Positions 3,536 to 64,000 of a stretch of DNA of 64,000 nt are shown here, piece by piece. The notes below the pieces were generated by a model. It was not told the origin of the DNA, did not search any database, and worked only from the letters and a program-made list of their open reading frames with translations. Origin of the DNA: Alentia gelatinosa (taxonomy: Eukaryota; Annelida; Polychaeta; Phyllodocida; Polynoidae). Made by a program: the position numbers and the translations under genes. Every line of letters starts with the position of its first letter. Position 1 is the first letter of the stretch. The stretch covers positions 124,851,016 through 124,915,015 of the forward strand of contig OX465580.1 in the NCBI GenBank assembly GCA_950022655.1. Direction: 5' to 3'.

Positions 3536-3552
3536 ATTCTACTTGGAACTAT

Positions 3553-5335: not shown

Positions 5336-5338
5336 AAG

Positions 5339-7150: not shown

Positions 7151-7189
7151 TACAACGGACAATGTGAATAGTGATTCAGTTATGACTTT

Positions 7190-7418: not shown

Positions 7419-7463
<45 letters not shown>

Positions 7464-8400: not shown

Positions 8401-8584
8401 CTTAGTGTTATCAATTTAGTTCCATACCTCACCTACAGGAGGGGAGCGTACATAAGTTAAACACATTGTTGGTCATACATACATACATACATACATACAC
8501 AGAGGCTTTCTAGTTAATCCATTTAGTTCCATACCTCACTCATAGGAGGGGCGCGCATAAGTTAAACACCTTAGTTAAACTAAT

Positions 8585-11258: not shown

Positions 11259-14200
11259 CTACATCATGGGCTCCAATAGCTTCTTCCATTTCACAAAACG
11301 GTCCTGTTTCCCAGTCAACTCACAAATATATCTTTCTACCCGTAAACTGTTGCGAAGTTCCAAACTCCAGTCATATACCGATAATTTGCTATTGTGAAAA
11401 AGTTTTTGCCGATAGATATAGTACTTTGCATGGAGGGATATATAATTAGTTATTTCGGGGAGGCTACCTTTGTTGGTGGTACCTAAAATCAATTCTATTG
11501 GGTCCAGGCCCATAACCAGTCCAGAACATGTCTTCAGCCATTTTGTTGCCTGTTCCCAAAACAACCGCACTACGGGGCACTCCACAAAGAAATGGACCAT
11601 GGAATCTGGTTCCTCACAATAAGAGCAGGTAGGTGAAGACCGTACCTTAATTCGCATTTGATTTGATAAACAGTCTCAATTTCGTCCTTCATCATAAATC
11701 TTTTGTTCCGTATCAGATCTTGGACCTGAACTATGCCTGCCCTTTTCCATGTGCGAATAAGCTGGATTTCTACCTCCCAGTCCCAGCGAATAAACATGTT
11801 GTTCAAGAGAGGGTAGTTCTGTTTCTCTCTCTCACTCGTTGGGCTCTTGTTGTACAAGGCTTTCCATTGAGTAATAATTTGTTTATAAAACTTCGGTAGT
11901 TCAGCGGGGGCCCTGTATTCTACCTTCTCCAGAAAGAATTCCCAAATGGAAGTATTAATACCGGCAAAGCCTCTGAAAAAAAGTGTCCATGGTAGGAATT
12001 CCTCTCTGCAAAAACGTGAAATCCATTTATACCTTGACACCTCATGCATAATTTTGAAATCCAGCAGTTTAAGACCACCCATTTCTATCGGTTGTCTGAT
12101 AACCTTGAACGTAACCTTACTACTCTTACTTCACCATATAAAGGCAGCTACAATTTTGCGGAATTCCGTAAAGACTCTCTCTGGGGTGTATAGCACCGAA
12201 GAGCAGTATAAAATCTGGGGAATCAATAAGCTGTTCACAATCGTGATTCTACCTTTGATAGAAAGACTCCTATAAGCCCAAAGATTCGTTTTAACCTGAC
12301 ATTTGTCCAATTTATTTTGGAAGTTCAGTCGAAAATCCTCCTTGTGTGATGCCCCGTTCCAAAAAACAATCCCCAGAATCTCTAACCGTGTAACCCTTGG
12401 TAGAGGAAGGGAAGGAGATTTATCCCTTGGGTGCAGGCCGACTGGAAGAATCTTGGACTTTTCTTCATTAATCCTAAGGCCGGCCAGGTTCCCGAAGATC
12501 CTGATAATGTCCAGGACCCTCTGAGCCGAGCCCAGGTCCCTCACCACGCAACACAGGTCGTCCGCAAACAGTGATAACTTAATTTCTTTCTCCGATAATC
12601 GAATGCCTCTGATACCCGGATTCTCCCTTAGCGCAATCGCTAGGAATTCTATAGTGAGGATAAACAAGTATGGGGAGAGGCAGCAACCCTGTCGCATGCC
12701 TCGTTCTGGTTTGAACCAGCGAGTGTGAAAACCATTATTCGAGACACACACCTCGGGGTAAGTGTAAAGGATCTTACCCAATTACAAAAATTTGGACCAA
12801 AGCCATAAAGTCTTAAAGCATTCCCTATCACATCCCACCTGACCGATTCAAAGGCCTTCTCAAAATCAATGCTCATTATAAAACCCGCCAATCCCTTGCT
12901 GTTAAGATACGAAACGCTATCCCTGAGCAACCTGATGTTCGTGCCGATATATCTTCCCTTCATAAAACCAGTTTGATCTTTGTAAACGATTGACTCCAGA
13001 CAACCCTGTACCCTTAAGGCAAGAAGTTTAGTTAAAATTTTGTAATCCGTGTTTAACATTGTGATTGGTCTCCAGTTCCTAATGTCTTCCCTATTAACCT
13101 TCTTTTTCGGAATTAAATTTATCACACCCCTTTTCTGCTCTATGCTGAGGGAGTTGTTCTCCTTAACAGCTGACAGTGAACTGAAGACCAAGTCCTGTAT
13201 TTCCCCCCAAAAATATCTGTAGAATTCCGCCGTGAGCCCATCCATGCCCGGGCACTTGTTATTGTTAAGGCTTTTGAGAGTTGACCTGAGTTCCTCCCTA
13301 CCTAGAGGTGCATCTACTTTATCCCTGTCTATGACTGATATTGTAGGTATGGCCTCCTCAGCCACCAAACCATCTAGGTGGTCAAAAAGATTGTCCCCTC
13401 CCCCATTGTTTGAATAAAGGTTCTTGTAGAACGAGAAGATTCTATGAGACACCCTGTCTGGGTTGGAGGTGACCTCTCCCTCCTGTGTCCTGATCTGGGA
13501 GATTAGTTTCCTATTGTAATTTTGCTTCATGATATTTAAGAAGTATTTTGTAGGTTTGTCTCCGTGTAAGACCCAATTAGCTTTGGACTTGAACATAGTT
13601 GGAGGGTTTTTAATTTTTTGGCTCGCTCGAGGTCGCTCCTAATACATTCTAGCTCTCTCTGTTCCGGCTCTTCCAATGGTGAGGTCCTGCTCTCCAGTTC
13701 GGTTATTCTTTTGAGACCCTCTACTCTCTCCCTGTTGCCCTTCTGTCTTTTCTCCCTCGAATACGTAATTGTAAAGTCCCTGATTTTATATTTTAAGAAG
13801 TCCCATCTAATGCCAGGTCTTAATCCCCCATGGAGGGAGGACCATTGCTGAATGAGGCCCGAAAGCTGAGAGGTGTAAGCTTTGTCTCCCAACAGAAAAT
13901 TGTCGAATTTCCAGTAACCCGGACCTGTGTATTGAGAAGGGCGCTCGAGTTGTATCATAAGGAGCGAATGATCAGTGTCGAGAGCAGACACAATTTCTAG
14001 ATGTTTAATCCTATTCTTATAGTTGTCGGACACAAACCAGTAATCCAGCCTAGAACATTTTTTTCCCCTGCGGAAGGTAAATTTCTTTTGAGTAGGGTGG
14101 GATTCCCTCCAGATGTCTGTTAGGTCAAAAGCCTCTAGGAGGTTCAAAAGGGATTGACGATATCTGTTGGACCTCCTCCCAGTGTCAGTCGGAAGATCCA

Positions 14201-14690
14201 GGTGTGGTGTAAGGGCTATGTTGAAGTCCCCCCCCAAAAGGATAGGAATATCGGAAAATTTAGATAGGAGCTCTTTCAGGGACAGCAGTAAGTCAAGTTG
14301 ATGCTGAGGCCTGCCCTACATCGGAGCGTAAATGCTGCCAAGCAGTAGGTCATCCCCATCAATCTGTATATGTGCTAATACTATTCTTCCTTCCCTGTCT
14401 GAAACATGTTCCTGTAAGACTATGTCTGGGTCTGAGGTTAGGGCGATGGCTACTCCCCCCGCCTGAGAAGTTCTGTTAGAGAAAATCATCCTGGCCCCCC
14501 ATTCCAATTCCCATAATTTATTTGACTCTCGCACACTGTGTGTTTCCTGTACCAAGAAGATATCTGTGGTTTTCCTAAGCTGGGAAAAGACTGTTTTTCT
14601 CTTGGTCCTATTTCCCAGCCCATTTACATTCAGACACCCAATCCTCAGGTCCCTCTGCCTCCCGAACCCCTCTCTCTTATCCCCACTCAT
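11259..14690 (-). pseudogene. LINE-1 ORF2: endonuclease plus reverse transcriptase, broken
   Basis: It starts at ATG 14,690. The apurinic-type endonuclease is first: CLNVNGL, QETH, GGVAIAL, IYAP, then GGDFN, SRLDYWFVS and TDHSLL. An in-frame TAG lies at 14,316-14,318. A frameshift falls near 13,600-13,620 at an A-rich run. The RT domain follows: PGMDGL, NWRPITMLN, QTGFMKGR, IDFEKAFESV, a one-base frameshift near 12,782, GMRQGC, SLFADDL, then an in-frame TGA at 12,131-12,133. A further frameshift near 11,657 precedes the terminal CSYC...HFF.ECP motif of the zf-RVT type. The gene would copy the element RNA into DNA at a nicked target. All damage looks like simple substitutions or single-base indels. 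Confidence 0.9.
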
Positions 14691-15698
14691 ATCCAGAGAA
14701 GAGCATCACACATACGAAGGTTCCTTCGCTTGCTAGCCCCATCCCTCCCCCTCTTTGTCCATGTACTACCCCCCTTCCTATCTCACCCCTCTTCAGACAA
14801 CAAGTAATTTATCACACAGAAAAGGAAAAAAACATTCAACATCATTAAGCTCAAAAGGCAAGAAAGAGTCCATTCTCTCCTTCATTTAGAAAGAGATCCT
14901 TGTTTTTGCACCCTTGCACCAACAAGGTATCGAGGTTACTGAGCCTTTGTTCCCAGAAGTAGGTATCCCCCCCAATTCTGAGAATATCCAGCTTAGATAT
15001 TCCGACATTACCAAATTTTCAACAAAAAAAAAGAAAAAAAAAGAACCGGTAACCTAATCTGGGCTATCAATCGACCGACCCAGGTAAGGAAAGCAGTCTA
15101 GTACACGGGCTACTATCAACCGACTGTTTTGCGTGTAGCCGAACATCCCTATACAGAAGAGGATTAAACCTCGCACAGTCATTCAATCTTATGGGCAAGT
15201 CTCTTATTAATTCTGGACCCATACCAAAAATGGCCATAACACCTGACTTCTCTCCAATACGATCTATAGACAATCAAAATACATTTCGATCTCAATAATT
15301 CTAGACCTGTTTCAAACCTGGATCTCCAGGCCTATTACGATTGTAGTCACCTGGTTCCCTCCACCCCCGGATACTATAATATCGCCAATATGCCCCCCCC
15401 TCCCCCCCCCCGGGTCCTATCAAACGACTGGGCCTGGGAAAAGGAGAAGGCCGGGGGCCCCGACACGTGAACACCTATAGACTAGTTGTTTTTCCCTTTT
15501 ATTTCTCTTTTCCCGGCACCTGAACCCAGCATTTATCAATTAAGCCCACCCCCCCCCCCCCCGACCTATCAAACGACCGGTCCCGGGGAAGGGCTATCAA
15601 GCAATCAAATTCTCAAAACTGTAGACCCTGGCAGACCACATACATTTATTGGTATTCACAATAATGGCTACATACCAGAGTAGATTGTTTTTGGCCGA

Positions 15699-16330
15699 TC
15701 ACAAGCTATTCAGAAGTTTTTCTATCTTGTTTCCCCAGTCTTTGAGAAGGTCAACCCCGAGATGTATCCCGTCGGCATGGAGCATGTCGTAATATGATTT
15801 TACCTTTCCCTCTCTGTGGCGGTGGACCAGCCTCTGTAGCCAAGGAGTAGGGACGGCATTAGCCTGATTGACGGCGACGATGCCCCTGTTGATCCCCGTC
15901 ACAGCCTCTTCCAAGACTACCTGTTTATCCATGACTTCCTTGTTGTTTCTAGGGAGGTTCGAGCAGACAGCAAAGTCGATCCCCACCACCGGGCCGATGA
16001 TGAATCTCGTTCCGGGTAGTAGGGCCCGCCACTCTGCTTCTGCCTCCTTCACTTGGTCCAACACGAAACTCACCAGGTCCTCTGCTGTCTGCTTCAGGTC
16101 CTCTCTTCTCTCCCCCCTAATCGTCAGGTTGTTGACTCCAGCTATGACCAAGTATGAATGACCCGGAGACCTCATGTCGAATCTCAGGGCTCGATTGGCC
16201 GTTCTCTGGAACGTAGCTCCCGGCAAGAATCGGACCAAAACCCTTTCATTGTGAATGTGGTTCTGTAGAAGTCGGCCCCTTGAGTCTGTGAACACTATCA
16301 ATGAGGTCGTCACGTTCGGGTAAAGGGGAG
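15699..16330 (-). pseudogene. LINE-1 SGNH/GDSL esterase domain
   Basis: An open frame of about 205 codons. Block I reads FTDSRGR, with Ser kept but the usual Gly of GDS replaced by Thr. An AGVNNL motif gives the block III Asn, and DGIHLG near the C-terminus supplies the Asp/His pair. SGNH hydrolases cleave ester or acetyl groups, and esterase domains are known in ORF1 proteins of CR1-like LINEs. No clear ATG begins this frame (a GTG lies at 16,313) and a TGA sits about 30 bases upstream, so the original was probably joined to the preceding NADAR frame or began further upstream. LINE-2 of this window has its counterpart at 60,241-60,909. Confidence 0.8.
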
Positions 16331-16951
16331 GTAGTACTCATTTCCCCTCAACAGAAATGTTGCTTGGCTGTCCCTCCATCTGTGATCTCGATTCACTTCC
16401 CGTTGGCAATGAAGTGACATCATCAGACTTGGTGGTAACGTCATCTAAAAGTGCGCAGTCTCCCCCCTGAGCTTCACGAGCCATAGGCGTGGCCCCCCCA
16501 AGAGTGGAACGGGGAGGGATCCCCCCTCCTGGGGAGTGTCCCTGGGCAGTAAAGTCTGCCCATGCAACGGCCTAAGTTCCCTTCGTAAGTCCATTAGGAG
16601 CAGGCCTAGCTTATTTAGGCCTGTGCTCTTGACACCTGACCTAGCTTCTGACATGGTGAGGCCGCCCCCCCACTTTCGATCCTTGGTAGCCTCAACCAGT
16701 ATACAATCCTCCGTTCGCACGAGCAACTTCGCTAGAAAGTTGTTTTGTTGGAACTTTGCCTGTAACCCCCTAACCATCACTTCGTCCTCTTGTCTTTCCC
16801 AAGCCTGAGTAGGCCTCACCTCTCGGGAAATTCTCTTGACTTGATACGGGTCATCGCTGGATAGTATGTTCTGTGAACTGGTCCTGTCGCCGCACAATTC
16901 AGCTTTGGTGGCTGCATAGGCTTGCTCCGCTGAGCTAAACACTTTCCCGTC

Positions 16952-16964
16952 CATTTATATTTTG
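16952..16964. repeat. 13-bp duplication flanking the insert, left copy
   Basis: CATTTATATTTTG recurs at 17,503-17,515. The length suits a target-primed or similar insertion. Confidence 0.75.
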
Positions 16965-17502: not shown

Positions 17503-17515
17503 CATTTATATTTTG
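17503..17515. repeat. 13-bp duplication flanking the insert, right copy
   Basis: This is the partner of 16,952-16,964. The shared sequence contains the TAA that ends the frame at 17,506, so the stop predates the insertion or lies in the duplicated target. Confidence 0.75.
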
Positions 17516-18543
17516 CACTTGAAAAAGTTCGAGAGGGGGGCATGGGGGCCCTGGAAGACAACCGATTTGCCCTTGTGCACTGTGAAAGTGTTCTTAAGGG
17601 AGGCCTTTTCTGGGAGTTTGTCTAGGTCATTGGCTCCATAAAGCCTGCCCCCTACCACTATCCCGTCACTGCCTCGGACCAAGCGGGAGCTCAGGCCCAC
17701 GCTGGCCGCGTTGTCTGCTATCGCTCTCAAAGTGGCTCTCTGGTGTGAAATCTTCTCTGGAATATCCTCAGAAAGCCAAACATTTTTCGTTCTTGCCTGT
17801 TTCAGAAGCCTACTTTTGCATCTTAGAATTTCAATTTTAGCCGACTCATGAAGTAAAGAAACCCTGATAGGCCTAGGCCTACCTGTGCCTACGAATTTCC
17901 CCACCCTGTGTGCCACGTCCAGTTCAGTCGGGTGCAAGTGAACCCCCGTAGCAGCGATTATGTCAGCGGCGATTTCTCTAGTATTCTCATATCTGTTTTC
18001 TTGAACCCCTGAAATTATGATTGACTTCGCATTAAGCCTTTTAATCAACAGTGCTTCCCCGCCCTCCGTGGGCCTATGAGCCTCACCCGTCGCCTCCAAC
18101 TCTTTGACCCTATTTTCCAAGTCCCTCGACTTCTTATCGCCAGAAACCTTAGAAGATTCCACCGAGATTCTAAGATCGTCACTGTCAATGTCCACTCTCC
18201 CCGTATAATCCTTCAGCATTTCTGTGTCATTTGAGGTGACTTGAAGTAGGCCCTCAAGTCTCTCCTGACTCGCTTCAAGTGTGACAACTCTCTCGGACAA
18301 CCTAACGTTCTCCCCCTCCAATCCTTTCACTCCTTCTCTCAGTTCTTCAAAATTAGCCTGCAACCTGCGTTAAACATCAGGCGAAACTTCGAAGCTTCCC
18401 TTCCCATGTTTCGGACCTTTTTTCCTAACCTGTAATTTGTCCTGTGGAATGCCTTGCTCAGGACAAACGTCGGCGAGGCTTGGAAAGCCGTCCATCTCGG
18501 CTCCATCTTTGTTCATGGCGCTTCTTGTCTGTCTTCCACTCAT
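17506..18543 (-). pseudogene. LINE-1 ORF1: coiled coil, RRM and C-terminal domain
   Basis: From ATG 18,543 the frame runs about 57 codons to an in-frame TAA at 18,370-18,372. It then continues in the same frame to 17,506. Domains in order: a short basic leader; a heptad-rich coiled coil (about 18,360-18,080) for trimer formation; an RRM-like segment (KSIIISGVQE...DVAHRVG) with the RPRPIRV signature; a C-terminal domain (NVWLSEDIPEKI...RLYGANDLDKLP); then the first NADAR block. This is the L1 ORF1p architecture, an RNA chaperone that coats element RNA. The fused NADAR start is unusual. Confidence 0.85.
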
Positions 18544-39289: not shown

Positions 39290-39715
39290 CTCATGTTAGT
39301 CTCACCGCCTCCCTGTACAGGGTATCAGGTCATGCAAAATAGATGTTTGAGATCCATCCTCCGTGTAGAACAAAGAACGCACACAAATTATGCACATGCG
39401 TTATACAATATGCCAAAATTAGAGAAGAGAAGGAAATCTCACTTGTTAAAATATGTCTATAAACGAGCCCAGAATGTAGAAAATCTTGATGTCACAACAC
39501 CCATCCACAAGGATGAGAACAGCACCCGTACTAAAGGTACACAAACCTTACTGTACGGTATACACAACCAGTACGGAGTATCTATGTATCACAAATGGAG
39601 CAATCTGTCACCCCTCATGAGACAGATGGAAACCCTTCGTGAGTTTAAAAGCCTGACAAAAAAAAAAAAAAAAAAAAAAAAAAAGAAGAATGATGAAGGA
39701 TTCCATCCAACAAAT
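39290..39715 (+). pseudogene. LINE reverse transcriptase C-terminal fragment (block B copy)
   Basis: About 130 codons match the C-terminal region of jockey/CR1-like LINE proteins: LQNR-like MQNRCLRSILRV, LPKLEKRRKSHLLKYVYKRA, TRTKGTQ, WSNLSPLMRQMETLREFKSLTKK. It ends at an A-rich run (39,660-39,683) and a TG microsatellite. It is a 5'-truncated insertion, longer than the block A counterpart at 3,376-3,535. It is not part of LINE-1 or LINE-2 of this window. Confidence 0.7.
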
Positions 39716-39736
39716 TTAATAATTCTACTTGGAACT

Positions 39737-39770
<34 letters not shown>

Positions 39771-40303
39771 GTAGGAATTACTTCCAGTTATAAAACATAT
39801 TGTTGAGGTTAGTCCACTATACCAACAATCACAAAATGATTATTCCAAGTAACCAATATGAGTGAATGTTTAATATACGCTATTTAATGAATCTCCAATT
39901 TTCTATGTCTCGCTGTATCGAAAAAATCTTGTTCTGTATCCTAAGGAAGACTAAAGGGTGTATATCGGGAAGCCGATTGAAACCAGTGATATGTATCACT
40001 AACGGTCTTCTCCTACTGCATTGTTACACATATATACTTTCCCACAAAGGACAAGAAAACACCATGTATTCTCAAAATGTGACAATAAAGTGAAGTTATC
40101 AAAAAATTATATTATATTATATTGTATTAGTGCTTTTGTTATACATCTATTTATCATTAATAACATCATTGAAACTGAATAAATTATTAATATTAATTAA
40201 TCATTGTCATTAATAGTATGATAATGATATAACAATGATTAATTAATGACTGTCTAACTAATTATCATTATTAGCTAGTCATTGGATAAACTGAATACCA
40301 AAT

Positions 40304-42430
40304 GGTGGCAATCAATGATACATACCTTTAGTGTTGGGTTTTCTCACGTCGATGATGGTAGATAGAATATGACAATAACGTGACCTCACAAAATTGACGC
40401 TCAATCAATCTATGGTGTGGAGAATCCCATTCGGTAATCTGTGATGGTGATGGTAAGGTTTCCCATGGTAGGATTGAAATCAGCAGGTAGTCTAACAGCA
40501 AGGATATCCCATAGAGCAATGTGATGAATAGACAGTGTAATACCCCGTATATAAACCAAACATCCACCTTGTTGTGCAGTAAAGAATCAACAGGTTGAGG
40601 CATGGATTTAATCGACTGTAGTGTGTTGTAATAATCTAATACCGATTAAAAAGGGATTATAGTAATCGGATAAACACCCTTGAGAATTGGTAATTTTTCC
40701 CAGTACATCCACAATGGTGAGTAATTTTTACCCGTGTAATAATGATAATGGTAAAAAATCCTATTGACTGTATACTAGTACAACACGTCTCCCCGGAAAA
40801 AATGACGCATTTCCCCTGGCAGAGGGTAAAATTACCATACACCTCTATGAGTTGTATCAATGTCATCAGAATGCGTCACTGTTTACATGTCACCTACTCG
40901 AGGTTTTGTAGCTGTGTAGGTAGCCTGTATATGCAGGTGTCTCACATCTCAGCTATACATTAAAAGGGGCTGTACCTTTATGTAAAGTGTCCTTTTAAGA
41001 CTGAATAACTAAACCTAATTAATCAAAATTGGTATTAGAGTGTATACCTTATCAGGTAATGTCTACAATAAGGCAATGCAATCTTGACTATGTTAAGGTT
41101 ACATCTGAAATAATGAGTAGGGGGTAACTGAATAGTTAAAAATCTAAATCATGAAATAATGAAATATAATTCGTGAGTAGTTTGAATTGAATATTTAACT
41201 TTCTATTGAGGAATAATTTAAATACATGTTCAAGAAGCATGTTAAATATTGACATCGTTGTCGGTGTTAATGTCAGTGTCAATACCCATATCATTACCAC
41301 ATTTAGAGATCAGTGATAATCATTGACTATCTACTGCTACAAATGAATGAGTGTGTATTGCAGGCAGCTACCGCGAGCGGTCGGATACAGGTGGCAATCA
41401 ATGATACATACCTTTAGTGTTGGGTTTTCTCACGTCGATGATGGTAGATAGAATATGCCAATAACGTGACCTCACGTAATTGATGCTCAATCAATCTACG
41501 GTGTGGAAAATCCCATTCGGTAATCTGCGATGGTGATGGTAAGGTTTCCCATGGTAGGATTGAAATCAGCAGGTAGTCTAACAGCAAGGATATCCCATAG
41601 AGCGATGTGATGAATAGACAGTGTAATACCCCGTATATAAACCAAACATCCACCTTGTTGTGCGGTAAAGAATCAACAGGTTGAGGCATGGATTTAATCG
41701 ACTGTAGTGTGTTGTAATAATCTAATACCGATTAAAAAGGGATTATAGTAATCGGATAAACACCCTTGAGAATTGGTAATTTTTCCCAGTACATCCACAA
41801 TGGTGAGTAATTTTTACCCGTGTAATAATGATAATGGTAAAAAAATCCTATTGACTGTATACTAGTACAACACGTCTCCCCGGAAAAAATGACGCATTTC
41901 CCCTGGCAGAGGGTAAAATTACCATACACCTCTATGAGTTGTATCAATGTCATCAGAATGCGTCACTGTTTACATGTCACCTACTCAAGGTTTTGTAGCT
42001 GTGTAGGTAGCCTGTATATGCAGGTGTCTCACATCTCAGCTATACATTAAAAGGGGCTGTAACTTTATGTAAAGTGTCCTTTTAAGACTGAATAACTAAA
42101 CCTAATTAATCAAAATTGGTATTAGAGTGTATACCTTATCAGGTAATGTCTACAATAAGGCAATGCGATCTTGACTATGTTAAGGTTACATCTGAAATAA
42201 TGAGTAGGGGATAACTGGATAGTTAAAAATCTAAATCATGAAATAATGAAATATAATTCGTGAGTAGTTTGAATTGAATATTTAACTTTCTATTGAGGAA
42301 TAATTTAATGCCAGTGTCAATACCCATATCATCACCACATTTAGAGATCAGTGATAATCATTGACTATCTACTGCTACAAATGAATGAGTGTGTATTGCA
42401 GGCAGCTACCGCGAGCGGTCGGATACACAT
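40304..42430. repeat. 1,086-bp tandem duplication upstream of LRR gene B
   Basis: The word GGTGGCAATCAATGATACATACC starts at 40,304 and again at 41,390. The second unit has a deletion near 42,310 relative to the first. Block A has only one unit (from about 4,115). The duplication doubles the presumed upstream regulatory region and ends just before the promoter-like cluster. Confidence 0.9.
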
Positions 42431-42460
42431 GTGTCGGTTGAAAGGTGATCTTATCAAGAT

Positions 42461-42561
42461 GTCATTGGATAGTGTCACCCTCTCCGGTATCGCTACCGCC
42501 TCGCTGACACCGGGCTGACACCGGGTTTAGTGACACCCCTTTCCTCTTTGATTAGTATAAG
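42461..42561 (+). promoter_or_regulatory. Putative promoter of LRR gene copy B
   Basis: Repeats the TGACACC/GGTGTCA cluster and TATAAG (42,556-42,561) of copy A. One GTCACC word seen in copy A at 5,235 reads GTCATT here. Confidence 0.4.
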
Positions 42562-42564
42562 AAG

Positions 42565-44376
42565 ATGTCATTAATCTTATTGACTCAGAATACTAAGGAC
42601 ATCGACAGGATCAAGTCAGTCATCTTCATAGCCATCATGAGGCCATTCTTCATACTACCCGTCTTTGCTATATTGCTCATGCAAATTGAGGCCTTACTGG
42701 AATGCGGACCTGGTAAAAGATGTGTCTGTTACCCATCACGTGGAGTAATTTCATGCACCAACATTGGATTATACAGCATGCCCGATGTCCATCACCGAAA
42801 ATCCACCGGGTATCCTGTACTTGACCTTCGCGGCAACAATATCGGGACTATAGGTGATTTCCCAACGGATAGATTCACCAGAATAGACCTCAGAAGGAAT
42901 CCCATAGCTGATTCGTGTTCAAGTCTACCAAGAAGCGTGATAGACACTGACCAATGTAAGAGGATAACTTCGTCGATCGATGAACTTGAAACACATAAGC
43001 AATTAGACACTAACATGGACATCGAAGATCTCATGGATGACAATACATCTACCGAAAAGGTTCTAGGCGGTGTTGAAGTCGTGGTTCATGAAAATACAGT
43101 TAAAGTCAGGGATAACACTATCGGTAATAAGGATAAAACTGTTAAACCAAACATCGTTGAGGGCGATTCTAACGTGAAGGGTATTGATAAAGTGGTTAAC
43201 AGATCCGGTCGAATGATGGTTGTCGTGGTCAGCGCGACCGGTGCCGGCGGAGTAGGTGTAGTATTCGTCATTCTCATAAGCTTATTAATTCATCTTGCCC
43301 GGAAAGGAATATTACTTAAATGTTGTGACCGTGTATGTGGAAAATGTGCTTCTGACAATACATCTACGGATAATGTCAATACACCTGGATCATCAAACAA
43401 CAGTGGATTGGATATCGAGTCCGACAATGTTGATGATATATCAGGATTTGATCATGACCGTGGAACCTCAACAATGCGTGTAAAACATGTAGTGCCTCCA
43501 GCAGAACCATGTGAGTCCTTCCGTATAGAAGATACCGAACTCACGGTACAGCTACCTGAAAAAGATACCTCCACGGGAAATGAAGAGGAAAATGATCGGT
43601 GTACCGAACCTATAGATTTGAGGTAAGGTTATTATAATTATCATACTATTAATATTGTTATTACATCATGTAGATGATTCTTTGTAAGTGTCTATTGATA
43701 TGATACTATTATCATACTATAACCATCAATATATCTCTGTATATCATGTATTCTTGTATACAACTATCAGATGATTATCTATATACATTATATTAATATG
43801 TATTGTTATGATATCACATTAAATAGCACCTATGTATTACTATGTATGTATGTAATGTATGTATGATAAGTAATTATCATTATCATTATCTATATTATTA
43901 TTAATTATTGTATGTGTATTAATTATGTAATGTATATCAATATAATAGCTATGATATCATATTCTCGATACAGTACCGAGTGCAAGACGTCGCCAGGAAT
44001 GATACCTTCAAAACTGTGCGGTCCTGATACTGGTCCTGGTCCTGGTCCTGTACCCCGCTCCCACAAAAGGAAGAATGATAAACCTTATGCAAGACCTTCA
44101 ACCTCATCACGCCCACCTAACTCTTCACAGATGTCACCACAGCTAATAGAACTCGACTCACTAATTCCACCACCATCACCATCACCCCCACAACCACTTA
44201 TACCTAGCGAGTCATCTACAACGGTTGAGAAACCACATAACGTCGGAGTGGTGAAAGGTGTTGTAAAGTATAGTGGTTTCAAAAGACACTGTGATGGATT
44301 ACACACAGGTTTGACACCTCCTGATAAAGTATCACACATGGAACACGGATACGAAGATAGTGATTCAGACCAGTGA
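42565..44376 (+). CDS. Short LRR single-pass transmembrane protein, copy B (two exons)
   Basis: Exon 1 is 42,565-43,622 (likely start ATG 42,637), intron 43,623-43,973, exon 2 43,974-44,376, with the same splice sites and phase as copy A. The product has signal peptide, LRRNT-like cysteines, short LRR, transmembrane helix and Pro/Ser-rich tail. Against copy A, by eye, there are ten amino-acid changes in exon 1, two in exon 2 and one silent change (in the VEVVVH stretch). Changes fall in the leader, the LRRNT-LRR border, the acidic linker, next to the transmembrane helix and in the tail. The structure is intact, so both copies could be expressed. Confidence 0.75.
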
Positions 44377-44419
44377 TACAACGGACAATGTGAATAGTGA
44401 TTCAGTTATGACTTTGTCT

Positions 44420-45262
44420 GAGCTTTAGCTTTAGCTTTAGCTTTAGTTCCGCACTGGACCATACAAACTGGTATTCAAACAGGTGGTGCTGACTAATGGT
44501 ATATTTCATATATAGTATATACCATTAACTAGTTTTACCATAGTTTTTGTTAAGTAAAACAGTTTCTTAAGACATGATCCCGTGTCACACTTAGCTTAGC
44601 TTAGCTCAGCTTTTTAGCTTCATACATAGTAGTTCTCGTAGAACCATACAGATAGGTATTCAGGAGGATGACCGAACATGGTGCAGTTATTTAACTTAAT
44701 TTACTATAGTTTACTTGGTTTATCTTAACTTAGCTTAGCTTAGCTTAGCTAAATGAATACTATTGATTTATATGAATGGTTCATTGTTATTACCTTTACC
44801 TTAACCTACCATAGCATGTCTAAAAGACTGGGAATGATTTCTGATTAGTTTGTGATGTTACCCTATAGTATAGTATAGGATAGTTAAACTTAGAGGTTGT
44901 AAATAAATCCTTACATTCAAACCGTGTGTATGTGTATGTGTACACTCTAAAAAATAGAATAGTTTTGTAGTTTGATCATGCCATACTATACCATATCATA
45001 TGACATTATATATTATATTATCATATTTATAATGTTGTCATTCTGTACCATACCATACCATACCACACTTGTGATTCAGTATGTACATGTATAGTAATAA
45101 AGTATCAATACTTAACTAGATGCGTTCTGTTAGGTCTTTATAAATTATTATTATTATTTATATATATATCTAATACAGCTATAACTATTAATCTTATATC
45201 TTAATACATTATCTATATCAATATCAATATATATTACTCTAAGTATGTCTAATATGTGTTCT

Positions 45263-45293
<31 letters not shown>

Positions 45294-46150
45294 AATATGC
45301 ATAATATATACATATATACATTTATATACATATATACATATGTATACAAATAATGTGGGTTATTTGATGTATTAATTACAGAGGTCGCTTGGGTCTACCC
45401 TAAATTGATACCTCCACACCTCACCAGGTGGGGTTCGGTATGGGACAGGTGCGCCGGTACAGGTACTGCGCACCAGTCACCTCCCATACACAGAAGGATA
45501 GTCATGAGACTCAGTCTCCTCTTCGCATTTATCCTGATATACTTATATTCCATAGACTTAGTGTTATCAATTTAGTTCCATACCTCACCTACAGGAGAGG
45601 GGCGCACAAGTTAAACACCATGTTAATCATACATACATACACAGAGGCTTTCTAGTTAAACTAATTACGGAGGGATATATATATAGTAATAAAGTATTAA
45701 TACTTAACTATTAACTTAACTGTTCTGTTAGGTTTTATTATTATTATTATTATATTATTTATATATATATGTAATACACATATAATGTTTATCTTATATC
45801 TTATACATTATCTATATCAATATCAGTATATATTACTCTAATTATATCTAATACGTGTCATATACATACTTATACTCTAATTATGTCTAATACATGTTAT
45901 ATACATACATACATATATAAATATGCACAATATATACATATATATACATATATACTATATACATATACATATACACATATATACATATACATATGTACAT
46001 ATACATATATACATATATATATAATACTTATATTCCATAGACTTAGTGTTATCAATCTAGTTCCGTACTTCACCTACAGGAGGGGCGCGCATAAGTTAAA
46101 CACCTTGTTGATCATACATACATACATACACAGAGGCTTTCTAGTTAAAC
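44420..46150. repeat. Low-complexity AT-rich tract 3' of LRR gene B
   Basis: Counterpart of 7,190-8,580, longer because segments such as the 'cttatattccatagacttagtg' unit are duplicated (about 45,540 and 46,025). It contains (AGCTT)n-like, (ATACC)n, (ACAT)n and (ATATAC)n tracts and an AATAAA at 45,096-45,101. No gene is supported. Confidence 0.75.
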
Positions 46151-46154
46151 TAAT

Positions 46155-46487
46155 TACGGACGGTAAACACCGCACCCCTCCGAGACGTGTTTACCCCGCA
46201 GCTCGAGCCACCCCGAAATGTGTGCTCGGCCGTGTTTACCCCTGCGGAGCACAATGTTTGCCCCTGCGGAGCACCACGCTCCGCTGAACGCGAACAATAC
46301 CCGAGATAATCCCTTAAGGTGACCCGGCGCAGACTTCCCGGCACGGTATGCTCATAATACAAACAACCTCGACCAAAAGACAATAGATTGGGCAATAAAC
46401 AAACGAAAGAACAATCTGCGGAGCACCACGCATGACTGATTTTAAACAATTGATTCTGTGGTCTATACAGCTATGTATACTACTAGT
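46155..46487 (+). repeat. Dispersed 330-bp repeat R, copy 2
   Basis: Nearly identical to 8,585-8,920. It joins at 46,487 to a piece of the opening repeat ('agttcgtaatgctaa'), consistent with insertion into that repeat. Confidence 0.75.
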
Positions 46488-56240: not shown

Positions 56241-57601
56241 TTTTTCGTATACTACTAGTTGTTTCTCTATTAATTACTATCCCTTCACAGAGATAGCCAC
56301 ATATTGTCCCTGTAAATATGCTTGGAGAGTGATCAGGACGTGGTAGACTGGTCGGCAGGGTAAATAACGAGGAAATATATCAAAAGCAAGCAAATGAACT
56401 ACTGGAAAAGTAGACTCACCAATGTGTAAAGACTGTGGGATAATCTTGATGGATGTAGACATCAATATTGGGATACCTGTGTAAGTGAAGAAGCGTTTTT
56501 GCACGAGCACCGGACAAGCCTAGAATCGAAACGCCATCTTGGATATTGTACCGGCATGTCAACTGTGGTAAAACAGAAAATGGACGGTGTAACTGAGTAT
56601 AAAAATAGTACAAGTGAAATATTGGTAACAAATGAGTTGGAAAACGTTACAGAATCTAGTGATGATGGATACGATGAAACGGATAATGTTCCACTCTCAC
56701 AATTACCGAGGACTCTCAAACTAGATAATGTATGCTTACAAACAAAGGAGTCGCGAGGTAAGTCAACAGAGGCACAAGCGCGAGATGCAGAAATGGTAAA
56801 AGAGAGGAAAAGCAAAGGAGGTAAAAGAAATCGAACAGTGAGTAAAGAAAAACAAATTAAAATGAACATTCAACAAAAATCCCCAAGTGATCAACCGCCT
56901 TCGAAAGCCCCAAACAAACGTAGTAATAGTGTAGACTCACATAGTATGTCTACAGACGATACTGAGGTCACCATGAAACGAATCGATAGTACCGATGACA
57001 ATATTCTCTTGCCACAAACGATTCTGGGTGATTTCATGGAGCTAGTGAGCAGGAAAATCGAAGCTTTTACAAAAGAGATGAAAAGTGAAATGGACTGTAT
57101 GAAGAGTGAGTTAAAAAATTCGGGTTCCGAAATGAAGAAACTTACAAATGCTATGAGCAGTGTACATTGTGAAATAGCTACCATGACTGAAAAAACAACT
57201 TATGAGATTGAACAAGTGAAAGTCAGTGTAAAACAAAACAATCTAGAAATGAATGAAAAGTTTAGAATGGTTGATGAAAGAATAGCACAGGTTGAAAACC
57301 AACTTGCAAATAGATATGATAAAGTACTAGATAAACAAGAAGAGCTGGCAGAAAAGATGGAAGGGATGAAGGAAATGATCAGTAAAAATGAAAGTCAAGC
57401 CCTGGAAAGGGACAGAGAACTAGATCTAGAAATTGAAAAGGTAACAAAGGATCTAAAAAGATGTAATACTTACCTGACTGACGAAGTAAGATCTGTTAGT
57501 GAAGTTGTAGAAAAACATAGTGCTGAGATTCAAAAAGTAAGGGAAGCAGGGGGAGGAAATGTAGACAATTCTAAATTTCGTTCACCAAAACGGCTAAACT
57601 T

Positions 57602-57610
57602 ATATATAGG
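57602..57610. repeat. 9-bp target-site duplication, left
   Basis: ATATATAGG, repeated at 58,281-58,289. Removing one copy and the element joins LYIG to GMREL in frame. Confidence 0.8.
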
Positions 57611-58280
57611 GTACCTGGAGAACTGAGCCCGCAGGAGAACTGAGCCAGACGTGCGAACTGAGCCCGCAGGAGAACTGAGCCTGGGGTTGAGATTCAGAGG
57701 TGCGAACTGAGCCTGCAGGAGAACTGAGCCTGGGCCCACCGCTAGTTAGCAAGTTACTCTGTACATCTCAGGTCATAACGCTGTGAATAATTGGTGTAGA
57801 AACACCAGGTAAAGACTGATAGATGTCAAAATACATTCATGAAACGATGGGTAGGTTTATAGTTTGATTCTCTAAAGGGAACTTATGAAAATTTGCCGTT
57901 ATTCGTGTGACATTTTCTCCGATCGCTATGTGCACCTATTATCACTCATGTGCGGTCCTGTCATTTTCCGGGTGATTTCACCCACTTCTCATGAGAATTA
58001 AGACATGAAACTTAAACATCAGGTAGGGAAATATGTAACCTATATACGTTTCAAATATGAAGAAGATTGGCCACTTCGAACCACCGATATTCGGAAACAA
58101 AGCGTATCATCCGAGGCGGCCACCGCACCAACTCCCCAAAACGAATCGTATCTAAGGACCCTACAGCCCAGCACTGACTGAGCCAGGCTCACTTCTCTTG
58201 GAGGCTCAGTTCTCCTGAAGGCTCAGTTCGCATTCACACCTCTGGCTCAGTTCTCCTGCAGGCTCAGTTCTCTTGTATTC
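57611..58280. mobile_element. 670-bp non-autonomous DNA element with a 9-bp duplication
   Basis: GAGAACTGAGCCYGCAGG-type units occur five times at the left end and inverted at the right end, giving complex subterminal inverted repeats rather than simple ends. The 9-bp duplication is typical of Mutator-like elements. There is no open frame inside. Confidence 0.75.
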
Positions 58281-58289
58281 ATATATAGG
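58281..58289. repeat. 9-bp target-site duplication, right
   Basis: Partner of 57,602-57,610. Confidence 0.8.
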
Positions 58290-58969
58290 AGGCATGCGAG
58301 AACTGCAAAATGAATGTCCTTATGGAGTAGGTTGCTTTGTACTAAGCCAGACAGTGCCAGACTTACAACTCAATGAAATTACCTTTGCACAAAGAATGAA
58401 GAAGAGAGATAAGAGTGAGGAAAACTCACCAATTCTAGTATGCTTGTCAACAGTGAGAAGGCATGACCAGGTACTCAGAAACAAGAGTGTATTAAAGGAA
58501 ACAGAATGATTTGACAGAATATACATAAACCCAGACGAGACAATGGAGACTAGGCAGGCAAAGGGTTTAGCTAGAACAGTAGTAACATATTGCAGGCAAC
58601 AAGGACATGCCACAAGGTTAAAAGGTACAGAACTATGGATAAATGGTAAATGGTATAGTGGGAACAACCCAAGAGACATACCCGTATGGTACTTACCTTG
58701 GGAACAAGGTGAAACTGATAAAAGTTCTAGACAGAATGAGGCGAGGCATGGCTGGAAAGCACAAGCCGCAGCAAACCCTAGTAGAACTGTACCCAACACT
58801 GCATATGTTCAGAATGACCAGTTTGCAAATAGTAACGGGAATGGAACGACTGAAATAGACACGAAGTCAACACCAGTAGTAGAAGGAGAAGGGCCACTTG
58901 AGAATAAAAATACCAATAACAACGGTAGAGGACCAGACCTGTTAGCTCAGAGTAGGCCAAGTAAGTCTG

Positions 58970-59443
58970 GGGCCTGTTTTTTAGTCGTGACCATTTCCTA
59001 TAGTGACTAGTTAGTGACCGTTTGGAGACCGTTGGGTTCCAGAGATAAGTCGTCATAACATGTGCGACCATTTAGAGGGGTAAACTGTCGTGGTCACTGT
59101 TTTGGGTTCTAGAGTTGTGACCAGTTGGTGACCATTTAGCCCAAATGGTGGCATATTTCATTTTATACACCTCCACTGTATCAAATGAAACAATATTTAC
59201 TGCGATGAATTATCTATATCTGTTTTATCTAATTCCCAAATTCAAAAATTTTCTGTTGAGTAATACACATGTGAGGCATGCTTTTGTTTTTGAATGGGCC
59301 TTGGACCAACAGTGATCATAACAGCTGAACAGTGACCGGGACTGAGGAACACTATTTGGTCATGATCACTGGTTTGGTCACCCAACTGGTCACTCTTTTG
59401 TGATCACTACAAATAAAGACGTCGCTGTCTGAAAAACAGGCCC
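58970..59443. mobile_element. 474-bp inverted-repeat MITE inside LINE-2
   Basis: The ends GGGGCCTGTTTTT(C/T)AG are inverted at 58,969-58,984 and 59,429-59,444. GTGACC and GGTCAC words recur through the arms. It lies between the ORF1 tail and the NADAR domain. Only CTG is shared at the two flanks, so the target duplication is not settled; a hAT-like element is plausible. Confidence 0.7.
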
Positions 59444-59444
59444 C

Positions 59445-59994
59445 TGGATTGCTGTTAAAAGGGCATCGGATTTTCTGAGTAACTTTTACCCAAGCGATTT
59501 GAAGTACAATGGGGTTCTATACCAAACCGCAGAGCACTGTTATCAAGCTCAGAAATGCAGAATCTGTATAAGACCGGATTTGGTTCTGGAAATCCTTAAT
59601 GCTAAAACAGCAGCAGAAGCTAAGACCCTAGGATCGAAATGTAAAACCAATGAAAGATGGGTGACAGATAAAACTGAAATCATGCACTTTGTTGTATCTC
59701 AAAAATTCAGGCAAAATGCAGTATTGACAGAAGAATTACTCAAAACTCAAAACAAGCAGTTGGTAGAAGCCACCAAAGATAGGTTCTGGGCGGGGGGGCC
59801 TAGATATTGATGACAAGGAATACAACAGTGGAGTTTTCCCGGGTGAGAACACTCTGGGATTAATCCTAATGAGCTTAAGGGATGAAATAAATAGGGAGAA
59901 AAAAGTTGATATGTTGCAAGACCGCAAGAGGGACCTACAAGCAGTAGGTAAAGTAGGTAATGTGGTTGAGAACCACGAGGTGACAGCACTGTAA
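59445..59994 (+). pseudogene. LINE-2 NADAR domain
   Basis: The frame reads WIAVKRASDFLSNFYP, TAEHCYQAQK, MHFVVSQKFRQN and LVEATKDRFWAGG. After one extra base in a G run near 59,795 it continues as LDIDDKEYN, LGLILMSLRDEI, ending at TAA 59,992. These blocks, in order, define the NADAR/YbiA family: SNFY loop, EH.YQA.K helix, KF, VEA..D.FW.GG and LG.ILM.LR. The key residues of the family are kept except for the Gly disturbed by the frameshift. The domain is preceded by the ORF1 tail and followed after a 250-bp spacer by the esterase, the same order as in LINE-1. Family knowledge suggests removal of ADP-ribose from guanine or a related N-glycoside cleavage; its role in a LINE is inference. Confidence 0.85.
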
Positions 59995-60240
59995 AAGGGA
60001 TCGCCCAAGGATCACGTGATAATGCAGCGTCACAAAGCGGGGTGCTCAATGAGACTGAAAGACGAAAGTTGTGTTTGCTAGGTAGGTCGAGAATCTAATT
60101 GAATCCATGTAAATATCTAACGCAATATTCCTAAAGGAAAGCAGATTGAATTATAAAATAATACATCTCTATTGGAGTGTATAAGGACATGGATATCTAA
60201 ATTAGATTTTTTTTCTAATACCTTTCAGAGACATCACGAT

Positions 60241-60909
60241 ATGAACATGAATCCAAATTGGCCAAAGTACCTTGTTGTCGGGGACTCCCGAGCAAGGGGA
60301 ATGGTACATATGTTGACCACCCTACGAGGGCAGGATACTTACGTAGCCTGTGTACCGGGAGCTACCATAGAGAGATTGACGAATGTAGCAGTCAGAGAAC
60401 TACTCAGAGACAAAGAGTATGGACATATGTATAGAGCGTTATACATTGTAGGGGGAAGTAATAATGTAACCTCTAAAACAAGAGGAGGTATTACGCTATG
60501 CGAGGGATATGCGAGTTTGATTGTAAATAATGTGATAGATGCCTTGCGAGACTTGAAAATAGCAGTAGATGTGGTTGACCCAAACTGTAAAGTTGTTATC
60601 TCATCGATGTATTCGATAAATCTAAACGCAGCAAATAAAGTGATTAAAGGCAGACATCGTAGCCAAAGCAAAATAGAAGCGTTTTTTCAAGAAATAAACG
60701 AGAGAATATCAACACTAAATACTGACGAGATGGTGCTAACCCCCTTTTTGAGTAGAGTAATACACAAAAATGATAAAGAACAAGGCACTAGATATGTATA
60801 TGCAAAACTGGTGGATGGAGTGCACCCGAACGAAGCAGCCCAATGGGCAATATCGAGAGTACTAAGTAACTATATTACCAAAAATGCTCGACTTGGACAC
60901 CATCTATAA
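60241..60909 (+). CDS. LINE-2 SGNH/GDSL esterase
   Basis: ATG 60,241, 222 codons, uninterrupted. Block I is VVGDSRARG with the catalytic Ser; PGATIERL gives the block II Gly; GGSNNV the block III Asn; DGVHPN near the C-terminus the Asp and His. All four SGNH positions are kept. It lacks a signal peptide, so it would act inside the cell. Esterase domains are known in ORF1 products of CR1-like LINEs; they may act on lipids or acetylated substrates during RNP transport, but the substrate is unknown. It is the only undamaged protein module of the element in this window. Confidence 0.85.
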   Translation: MNMNPNWPKYLVVGDSRARGMVHMLTTLRGQDTYVACVPGATIERLTNVAVRELLRDKEYGHMYRALYIVGGSNNVTSKTRGGITLCEGYASLIVNNVIDALRDLKIAVDVVDPNCKVVISSMYSINLNAANKVIKGRHRSQSKIEAFFQEINERISTLNTDEMVLTPFLSRVIHKNDKEQGTRYVYAKLVDGVHPNEAAQWAISRVLSNYITKNARLGHHL

Positions 60910-61652: not shown

Positions 61653-64000
61653 ATGGTAAACCAAATAGTTGATGGTAATAATAAAAGTTATATAACAGTG
61701 GATGAATTACATCAAAAAAAGGGTTTAATTTTCTGTACTGCAAATGTTCACAGCTTGTATGGTAAATTATGGGTAATTAATGAAGTATTTCGGAATGTAA
61801 ATTTCCTGGCAATAAGGGAGACGTGGTTAATGGATAAGTATACAACGGGCATGTTAAATATAGAAAATAAAACTATTTTCAGGAATGACCGTAAGCACAA
61901 AGACATAGGCGGAGGCGTTGCACTATACGTGGACAACATGTATGCACCTCATGTTATAATGTACAATGACTTGATGATTTCAGATGAAAAAATAGAATGT
62001 TTGGTCTGTACCATACAAAGACTGATGCACAGACACATGTTGTTAGTAACTGTTTACAGACCCCCACATAACGATGTCGGCTTTTGTTATAACTATTTGG
62101 ATAAGATTGTGAATGATGTAAGATTCAAGAAACACGAAATATGGTTAATGGGCGATTTCAATGTGAACAGTAAGGCTACTAGCTGCCCAAAATATTGTTT
62201 AATGAAATCATTTCTTCTGGATAATAATTTGCACCACCTAAAAACATCAGAAACTTTTTTTAGACCAAAAGGAAAGAGCACCATTGATCACATTTATACT
62301 AACTCAAAATTGATTAATGAGTCTGGAAATATCAATTATCATCTTTCGGATCATGTTATTATATATTGTGTTAGAAAAAAAAAGAAGGAAATAAATCAAC
62401 GGAAAATTATTAGATTTAGAAGGAATAGTATGACAACGAACGATCAATGTGATGAAATATGGGATATGATCCTAGCTAATGAGTATAACCCGGATGCAAA
62501 TTTAGAAATGATGGAACATTTCTCGGATGTATTATATAACAGTATTAATTGTGTATCTACAATTAAAACCAAGAATCTAAGGACCCATAATGGACTGGTC
62601 CTACCTAAAGATATTAGTAGAAAAATTGAAAAGAGGCGAAAATGTTTAAAGAGATTAGTAACACTTGATTGTTCAAGTCAGGAATATAAAGATAATTTGG
62701 TTGAAATACGTAAATTGCGAAAAGAAATAAGGGTAGGAATACGGAAGGTTAAAGGAGATTAGGTTCGGAAGAACCTGGAGAAATATAAGCAAAAACCAAA
62801 GGAATTTTGAAGAACTTTGAACAAGACATGGGCGGGTTCAGGAAGTAAAACAGCAATATATCCTATAAAGGAAGGTCAAAATGTAAATGATATAAGAAAT
62901 AACATGAATAAATTCTTTTCGGAAGTGGGTAGTTTAGAAATAATTAACCCAGAGTTACAAACGAGAACTATAAGGAGTGATGAAAAAAATAATGATGAAG
63001 AAGAGACAGATTATTATGCAGAAAATCTAGTTATGAAAGTAGAAACTGATGAAACAGAACTAGCTAAAATAATAAGTAGCTTGGAAAATGATAAAAGTAC
63101 GGGATTAGATCTTATTAAGAGTGGTATGCTAAAGAGACTATTCTTATATAAATCAGATTTTATAGTAATGTTGTTAAATGATATCTTTGAGAAAAATTAC
63201 TTTCCAAATTGCCTAAAAAGAGCGGTTATAACACCATTACCGAAGGAAGGGGACTTAAGTATATATGGAAATTGGAGACCGATTTCGGTATTGCCTTTTA
63301 TATCGAAAGTAATGGAAAAGGTTTTACATAGATGTCTTCTGAGTTATTTAATAGATAAGAATATAATAGTAAAGGAACAATTCGGTTTTTTACCTGAACG
63401 ATCGACTGCACAAGCTATATTCAATTTGACAAATGTAATTTTAGAAGGGCTAAACGATAGGAAGACAGTTTTGGTAAGCTATTTGGATATGCGCAAAGCG
63501 TTTGATAGTGTGAGTCATGAGATCACAGTTAATAAATTCATAGAGATAAGAATAAAAGGAAATTTGTTAGCCATTCTTAGAGATTATTTAAAAAGAAGAA
63601 GTCATAAAACTAAGTTAGAAGGTAATGTATCAAATAGTAGGCCAGTGACCATGGGGGTACCACAAGGGTCGGTTTTGGGCCCGTTGTTGTTTATTTTGTT
63701 TATAAATAATATCACGGGTGTTTTAAATTTTTCGAGAGCATTACTATACGCTGACGACTTAGTTATTATACAGGAAGGACGGAACCAGGCGGAAATTATT
63801 ACGAGAATGGAACTAGATTTAGAGGAAATAAACAAATGGACCATAGCGAATCATTTAGCAATTAACTACAAAAAATCTAAGGTTAGTTGGTTTACAAATA
63901 AGAAGAATACCGATATAAAACAAAGTGTGAAAATGGGAGGATCTAACTTGGACGCTGTGATCAAATATAAATATTTGGGTGTGTTGATTGATACAGATAT
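61653..64000 (+). pseudogene. LINE-2 ORF2: endonuclease and reverse transcriptase, two stops, partial
   Basis: From ATG 61,653: endonuclease with TANVHSLYGK, ETWL, GGGVALYV, VYRPP, GDFNVN, STIDHIYTN and SDHVIIY (about residues 30-245). A basic linker has in-frame TAG at 62,760-62,762 and TGA at 62,808-62,810. The RT follows in the same frame to the window edge: GNWRPISVLP, EQFGFLPERST, YLDMRKAFDSV, GVPQGSVLGPLLF, YADDLVI, KYLGVLID. In the usual family pattern both stops sit where aromatic residues are expected, so each looks like a single substitution. Apart from these two stops the frame is open for over 780 codons, showing a fairly young copy. Confidence 0.9.

Follow-up and report, generated by a model that had tools for sequence, protein, structure and literature searches.

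How do two long interspersed nuclear elements (LINEs) with different reverse transcriptases (RTs) come to carry the same accessory cassette in the same order? The question is posed by a 64,000-nucleotide stretch of the polynoid annelid Alentia gelatinosa (assembly GCA_950022655.1, contig OX465580.1, forward-strand positions 124,851,016 to 124,915,015), the whole of which is called the window here. It holds two such elements, LINE-1 on the minus strand and LINE-2 on the plus strand. They are read as three-ORF LINEs, in which open reading frame 1 (ORF1) joins an L1-type RNA-binding core to a NADAR domain, a second ORF encodes an SGNH hydrolase, and ORF2 supplies endonuclease (EN) and RT. Taken whole, with the enzyme roles and the module exchange proposed below, this reading has an even chance of being right.

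The cassette in the two window elements

The domains, their order and their strand are confirmed in both window elements by six-frame reading, Pfam and pairwise comparison, which upholds the first-pass annotation in its claim of one cassette in one order. The ORF1 core comprises an RNA recognition motif (RRM) and a C-terminal domain (CTD). The parts of LINE-2 are the following.

56556..57605, plus strand: N-terminal part of ORF1 (presumed coiled coil), to the first RRM strand; ORF 56430-57626, ATG at 56556; tblastn against the intact relative L068 E=3e-19
57611..58289, no strand: insert in ORF1 bounded by inverted ends; the interval includes one of the two copies (57602-57610 and 58281-58289) of a 9-bp duplication, ATATATAGG
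58289..58850, plus strand: remaining RRM and CTD of ORF1, in-frame stop at 58507-58509; 45.9% identity to the intact L068 core
58967..59447, no strand: second insert with inverted ends, recognised from the sequence; a clear duplication was not found
59433..59810, plus strand: main part of NADAR, frameshift near 59800; PF08719 E=4.2e-23
59767..59994, plus strand: C-terminal part of NADAR in the next frame, to the end of ORF1; PF08719 profile positions 133-162, E=0.011
60241..60909, plus strand: SGNH hydrolase ORF, 222 aa
60910..61652, plus strand: spacer from the SGNH ORF to ORF2, 743 nt
61653..62762, plus strand: EN part of ORF2; PF14529 E=7e-11
62811..64000, plus strand: RT of ORF2, extending beyond the window end; PF00078 E=4.2e-34

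LINE-1 is read in the opposite direction.

17506..18369, minus strand: ORF1 with N-terminal part, RRM, CTD and first NADAR strands; 68% identity to the core of the intact relative L073
16952..17502, no strand: insert within NADAR plus one copy of a 13-bp duplication (copies at 16952 and 17503)
16445..16954, minus strand: NADAR; PF08719 E=6.1e-31, YbiA structure 2b3w E=4e-8
15699..16337, minus strand: SGNH hydrolase, homologous to that of LINE-2; alone it has no Pfam match
13536..14705, minus strand: EN of ORF2; PF03372 and PF14529, close to cut-offs
11259..13638, minus strand: L1/Tx1-type RT and zf-RVT of ORF2; PF00078, PF13966 E=3e-4 (below cut-off); RT 75% identical to that of L073

Neither window copy is intact. 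LINE-2 is interrupted by two inserts, of which one shows its 9-bp target duplication, and also has in-frame stops plus a frameshift, and LINE-1 has the NADAR insert with its 13-bp duplication, stops and frameshifts. The spacers between the SGNH ORF and ORF2 are long in both, 743 nt in LINE-2 and 1008 nt in LINE-1 (14691-15698).

NADAR: The identity of this domain is beyond doubt in both window elements. Pfam scores are 82.8 bits for LINE-2, 108.3 for LINE-1 and 115.1 for L068, and the gathering cut-off is 35.1. The glutamate and lysine of the ADP-ribose site and the last-strand glutamate of the L.E.T motif, residues whose roles are described for other NADARs (PMC11543638, PMC11125620), are invariant in 22 aligned rows.

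SGNH: The two window SGNHs match each other at 25% identity (E=6e-13), and their common ancestry is therefore clear. The LINE SGNHs have the hallmarks of SGNH/GDSL enzymes, namely the catalytic S, G, N and D-x-x-H blocks and the SGNH fold. Among rows with a letter at the position, the catalytic residues are conserved in 22/22 (S), 22/22 (G), 21/23 (N), 23/23 (D) and 23/23 (H). Pfam GDSL scores (19.9 bits for LINE-2, 24.6 for the relative L085) fall under the cut-off of 32.9, which is a detection threshold and not a defining trait, and the SGNHs of L068 and LINE-1 give no Pfam GDSL match. Because of these scores, the LINE proteins are best described as a divergent subfamily of putative SGNH/GDSL hydrolases. 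Their profile distantly matches 4c1b, an ORF1-encoded protein (E=0.0085), which we take to be ZfL2-1. The LINE-2 SGNH as a single-sequence query finds no match among 5.8 billion proteins, and neither single LINE SGNHs nor the LINE-1 ORF1 core find a relative in the PDB by sequence. A structure model of the SGNH built from 2 rows was discarded (pLDDT 45).

ORF1 core: A profile of 12 cores from LINE-1 and its relatives has L1 ORF1p as all of its best four PDB matches (E=2.5e-4 to 0.0037), and the order of RRM then CTD is that of a type II (L1-type) ORF1. Single core sequences match nothing in Pfam, which names no RRM in them, or in the PDB, and the LINE-2 RRM pieces have no BLASTP match to the LINE-1 RRM. 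The N-terminal part shows only weak Pfam coiled-coil matches.

RT: The second claim of the first-pass annotation, two different RT groups, is borne out. ORF2 of L073, the LINE-1-type relative, is L1-homologous along its length: its match to human L1 ORF2p scores 352.7 bits and covers residues 9-1114. ORF2 of L068, a LINE-2-type relative, has no match to L1 at 1e-3, and its best match is R2 (57.7 bits). The window LINE-2 RT piece alone scores 64.6 bits to L1 and 51.8 to R2, far under 352.7. The RT tree separates four LINE-1-type from 17 LINE-2-type rows with support 100/100. As to names, L1-type is supported by the ORF2p homology, and the earlier label "jockey/CR1-type" follows from motifs: LINE-2-type elements have the motifs GVPQGS and YADD, and in relatives ORF2 is about 967 aa long, which fits the CR1/L2/Jockey group and is not L1-like. 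Tx1 for LINE-1 and CR1/L2/Jockey for LINE-2 are presumed names, given from motifs.

Intact relatives and selection

The genome (1.234 Gb, 101 contigs) yields 3136 first-look NADAR candidates. All 150 that were scored exceed the Pfam cut-off, many of them in open frames of 500-840 aa. Twenty stretches of 9.9 kb were hand-picked, not drawn at random, from high-scoring NADAR matches, mostly in long frames. All 20 carry, on a single strand, an L1-type ORF1 core followed by NADAR, EN and RT, and 18 have SGNH between NADAR and EN (the exceptions are L073 and L077). The RT is LINE-2-type in 17 and LINE-1-type in three (L073, L077, L079). Two more families, D (L089/L095, L090/L093) and E (L091/L094), have ORF1 core, NADAR, SGNH, EN and LINE-2-type RT in 3/3 loci. 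These element counts exclude L088, whose NADAR sits on a repeat protein unrelated to LINEs, and L092, which was not traced as far as ORF2.

Three LINE-2-type copies, L068, L069 and L070 on contigs 7, 9 and 13, are 98.8-99.7% identical over about 6.97 kb, which indicates recent copying. Each has an ORF1 (776, 776 and 809 aa from the first ATG) of core, linker and NADAR, a separate 219-aa SGNH ORF, and a 967-aa ORF2. Further intact three-ORF sets are L074, L075, L078, L081, L084, L085 and L087, and the SGNH is an ORF of its own in all ten. In LINE-2-type copies NADAR thus closes ORF1 as its C-terminal domain, and SGNH has an ORF to itself.

These copies bear on the idea that LINE-2 is a chance nest, with a 5' part from a LINE-1-type element and the ORF2 of another LINE landed behind it. 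In favour of it, LINE-2 is broken and has its 743-nt spacer, and locus L098 shows such a chance neighbour: a LINE-1-type ORF1, decayed, lies ahead of a LINE-2-type ORF2. Against this, intact elements are near-identical in full length at three places, the order is the same in 17 of the 17 chosen LINE-2-type loci, and the GC content at third codon positions of the LINE-2 5' part (0.30-0.40) resembles its own ORF2 (0.29-0.32) and not LINE-1 (0.49-0.63). Nesting has a negligible chance of being the explanation, and the repeated intact copies refute it for the family. L098, considered as a LINE-1-type ORF1 joined to a LINE-2-type ORF2, is a decayed relic.

A sample taken from the RT side comprises six places from 125 scored LINE-2-type RTs, each without a neighbour among the NADAR matches listed. 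NADAR and SGNH are both present in two (L097, L102) and both absent in four (L096, L098, L099, L101), which may be 5' truncations. L101 and L102 have RT scores like that of L098.

Selection is best read from L078-L087, the least saturated pair and the one measurable for all domains. Its ratio of nonsynonymous to synonymous divergence (dN/dS) is 0.04 in CTD, NADAR and SGNH, 0.06 in RT and 0.17 in the N-terminal part. CTD, NADAR, SGNH and RT are under purifying selection in this pair. The values are rough, because dS is 1.6-2.7 in these four domains, and for the six other pairs 22 of the 24 four-domain comparisons have saturated dS; both points weaken the case. These LINEs, present in many copies of which some are intact and near-identical, keep the NADAR active-site signature, under RT-like constraint in the measurable pair.

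Exchange, descent or separate capture

Mean identities and relative depths compare the LINE-2-type groups A/B and C with the LINE-1 type. The trees and identities take five of the nine group A copies. Relative depth is the depth of the LINE-1-type split divided by that of the C/D split, both from A/B/E, with 60 column bootstraps per domain (range in brackets).

RT: A/B to C 36.4%, A/B to LINE-1 type 22.8%, C to LINE-1 type 22.5%; depth 1.95 (1.59-2.38), IQ-TREE point value 2.83
EN: 30.4%, 18.6%, 16.6%; depth 1.76 (1.48-2.08), IQ-TREE 2.04
CTD: 20.9%, 21.6%, 27.4%; depth 1.04 (0.85-1.25), IQ-TREE 1.06
NADAR: 34.5%, 34.9%, 34.0%; depth 1.00 (0.85-1.23), IQ-TREE 1.00
SGNH: 27.9%, 25.2%, 20.8%; depth 1.01 (0.84-1.19), IQ-TREE 1.00

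The depths of 1.00-1.04, against 1.95 for RT and 1.76 for EN, make the 5' parts look shared later than ORF2 and so favour module exchange. The first-pass annotation had left open whether the cassette was exchanged or repeatedly selected. Common ancestry is clear for SGNH, the depth ratios speak for exchange, and the CTD tree, which follows the RT split, speaks against it. That the 5' module passed between RT lineages after the ORF2 split, rather than being inherited since that split, is judged from these sequences to have a likelihood of a little over one half. The transfer could have occurred, for instance, via template switching.

Several observations weigh against exchange. The depth ratios could be pushed towards 1 by saturation, and CTD and NADAR are at or near the identity floor. 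NADARs of LINEs across RT groups share about 34% identity, and they share 32-35% with phage and bacterial NADARs. The RT split reappears in the CTD tree (support 96/94), to which long-branch warnings apply. The SGNH of group C is nearer A/B than the LINE-1 type by 7.0 points (2.6 to 11.6), as the RT predicts; the SGNH tree unites the LINE-1 type with A, B and E at 89/88 only and keeps a LINE-1 type plus C grouping in the approximately unbiased test (p-AU 0.118). The NADAR tree does not reject A, B and C as one clade (p-AU 0.453). No SGNH remnant was found in L073 and L077, two of the four LINE-1-type elements, and SGNH is therefore dispensable in those. The discordant domain trees that the first-pass annotation had set as the test of exchange were thus not obtained: CTD agrees with RT, and NADAR and SGNH are indecisive.

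Some of the same observations suit vertical descent, in which an ancestral LINE had ORF1-NADAR and SGNH before the RT split, two lineages kept them and nearly all others lost one or both. The CTD and RT trees show the same two groups, the NADAR tree is compatible, the SGNH of C lies nearer A/B, and 26 retroelement-labelled rows fall on one side of the NADAR tree (80/62; P0004 and P0009 bear this label without proof). Under descent, most known elements of the L1, CR1, L2 and Jockey kinds must have undergone loss. In the available part of PMC4120745, Table 1 (448 Jockey-superfamily elements) has no NADAR entry, and only two vertebrate groups appear there with esterase ORF1s. The RT and EN depths also disagree with those of the 5' parts, and CTD identity is higher between C and the LINE-1 type than between C and A/B (difference 6.5, 1.4 to 12.2). 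Descent is accordingly unlikely. An ORF1 exchange specific to group C and the LINE-1 type, suggested by the same CTD identities, was not upheld by the CTD tree.

A third explanation is that each lineage took NADAR independently from cellular or viral sources, its activity being repeatedly useful. The LINE NADAR groups are equally distant from one another and from bacterial and phage NADARs, and NADAR occurs in Pol of an Ectocarpus Gypsy element (PMC12477816). It also occurs in other retroelement-like proteins of this analysis (P0018, P0028). In P0028 the GDSL part shows no significant similarity to the LINE SGNH (9.8 bits, E 0.014), so the NADAR-GDSL pairing may have arisen more than once. SGNH and the ORF1 core are, in contrast, homologous across both RT groups and in the same order, and the retroelement-labelled NADAR rows cluster, if weakly (80/62). 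Separate captures are less probable still than descent. Exchange of the module is preferred by a small margin, and these elements speak for the movement of 5' modules between LINE lineages as distant as L1/Tx1-type and non-L1 types.

NADAR proteins: P0001, P0002 and the 520-aa P0017 begin with a region that resembles an L1-type ORF1 core (by alignment; Pfam names no core). P0018 is a 410-aa protein with CCHC zinc knuckles, found by reading, followed by NADAR, and it resembles a type I ORF1 or Gag. P0028, on a 16-kb contig, is a 652-aa protein with NADAR, GDSL (GDSL_2 E=1.4e-4, below cut-off) and zinc knuckles, again by reading; it has the same pair in the same order in another architecture. 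All five are putative retroelement proteins. Viral contigs gave 57 loci, and no match among them extends beyond residue 168 of the 375-residue query (the NADAR part). As NADAR outgroups, 23 viral stretches were excised, of which 12 are in the NADAR tree and identity comparison.

Other loci: The genome's top-scoring NADAR, L058 (1402-2130, plus strand, E=3e-50), has its own 242-aa frame, lies apart from the LINE NADARs in the tree and is likely the host's own. The NADAR of L088 (contig 5, 15168300-15171600) ends a long tandem-repeat protein in a stretch that shows no LINE part; it is perhaps a host gene that gained a NADAR, or the reverse. The window further contains a duplicated block, 3382-8913 and 39549-46484, which is 97-99% identical in pieces and has two copies each of a 356-aa ORF (5330-6400, 42556-43626) and a 168-aa ORF.

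Proposed role and known systems

The same two enzymes in two LINE lineages suggest a use against host defence or in the element's own copying. NADARs remove guanine-linked ADP-ribose from DNA (PMC11543638, PMC11125620), and among the hydrolase families tested only NADAR removed it from RNA guanine (PMC11833690). Guanine ADP-ribosylating activity is reported from six edible clams, and CARP-1 is a clam guanine ADP-ribosyltransferase (PMC11209040). On an RNA-binding ORF1p, the likeliest task of NADAR would be to clear ADP-ribose from element RNA or cDNA, an anti-ADP-ribosylation role inferred from the literature on NADARs elsewhere and from the conserved catalytic residues. Against this role stands that we know of no ADP-ribosylated LINE nucleic acid. 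ORF1p would coat the element RNA and carry NADAR to the RNA and first-strand cDNA. NADAR would there remove guanine-linked ADP-ribose added by ADP-ribosyltransferases of the host or of a competitor, which might otherwise hinder reverse transcription. The SGNH protein might hydrolyse an acyl or acetyl ester, perhaps for membrane-linked ribonucleoprotein assembly, as was proposed for the ZfL2-1 esterase (PMC3905857).

NADAR may instead perform another task, such as binding of RNA or ADP-ribose without hydrolysis, or the removal of reactive riboflavin-pathway intermediates in the manner of YbiA. Bacterial and plant NADARs clear such intermediates (PMC11543638), E. coli YbiA is less active than DarT1-linked NADAR on RNA guanine ADP-ribose (PMC11833690), and an RNA-processing role is suggested for retroelement NADARs (PMC12477816). 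The NADARs tested did act on guanine ADP-ribose (PMC11125620, PMC11833690), the catalytic residues are conserved here, and fusion to an RNA-binding retrotransposon protein suggests a nucleic acid substrate. Another task is therefore doubtful. A wider proposal is that animals defend themselves against retrotransposons by ADP-ribosylating guanine of RNA or cDNA, and that at least two deep LINE lineages responded by acquiring and trading a 5' cassette of a guanine de-ADP-ribosylase, joined to the RNA-binding ORF1p, and a lipid-acting SGNH. This proposal is equally tentative. If true, it would be for retrotransposons what the DarTG conflict is for phages. These LINEs bear on what NADARs do in animals and on ADP-ribosylation of nucleic acids outside bacteria. 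If NADAR acts on guanine ADP-ribose, what modifies retrotransposon nucleic acid, and whether removal of the mark helps, become directly testable.

The cassette has partial precedents. Several families of oyster Tx1 LINEs are already in print with a NADAR in their ORF1 (PMC12477816), and CR1/L2 esterase ORF1s are well known. In the literature searched, which largely excludes subscription papers, there is no report of NADAR and SGNH in one LINE or of NADAR in a non-Tx1 LINE.

DarT1-NADAR: The toxin-antitoxin pair and phage NADARs (PMC11543638, PMC11125620) share with the LINE domain the conserved E and K and a possible counter to nucleic acid ADP-ribosylation. The LINE NADAR differs by its YbiA-type last-strand glutamate, by its fusion to a retrotransposon RNA-binding protein, and in that no DarT1 partner is seen in the elements.

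Esterase LINEs: ZfL2-1 and the CR1/L2 type IV elements likewise encode an SGNH hydrolase upstream of ORF2 (PMC3905857, PMC4120745). Their esterase lies within ORF1, and the groups listed in the available parts of these papers have no RRM-CTD. In the intact LINE-2-type copies, SGNH is its own ORF beside an L1-type ORF1 with NADAR, and not an ORF1 domain. ORF1 evolution in CR1/L2 is described as reticulate (PMC4120745). The available text of a list of bivalve LINE clades does not contain the word esterase (PMC10294476).

Other retroelements: The Ectocarpus Gypsy element resembles the present LINEs in having a retroelement NADAR. It is a long terminal repeat (LTR) element with NADAR in Pol, and no SGNH is mentioned in the available part of PMC12477816. 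Bdelloid rotifer LTR and Penelope-like elements carry the same accessory enzyme (GDSL, DEDDy ORFs) across retroelement classes, and gene sharing is proposed for them (PMC5408684). They belong to other classes, have the accessory enzyme as ORF3, and come with no mention of NADAR in the available text.

L1-type and Tx1 LINEs: The present core profile matches structures of L1 ORF1p, the type II ORF1 with coiled coil, RRM and CTD, to which the present ORF1 adds the C-terminal NADAR. The Pacific oyster Tx1 LINEs have a YbiA-type NADAR in ORF1 of an L1/Tx1-type LINE, and window LINE-1 fits this kind; the available part of PMC12477816 names only Tx1 among LINEs and mentions no SGNH. Beyond the oyster Tx1 kind, the LINEs described here comprise a second RT group and an SGNH ORF, and they offer near-identical intact copies together with an estimate of selection.

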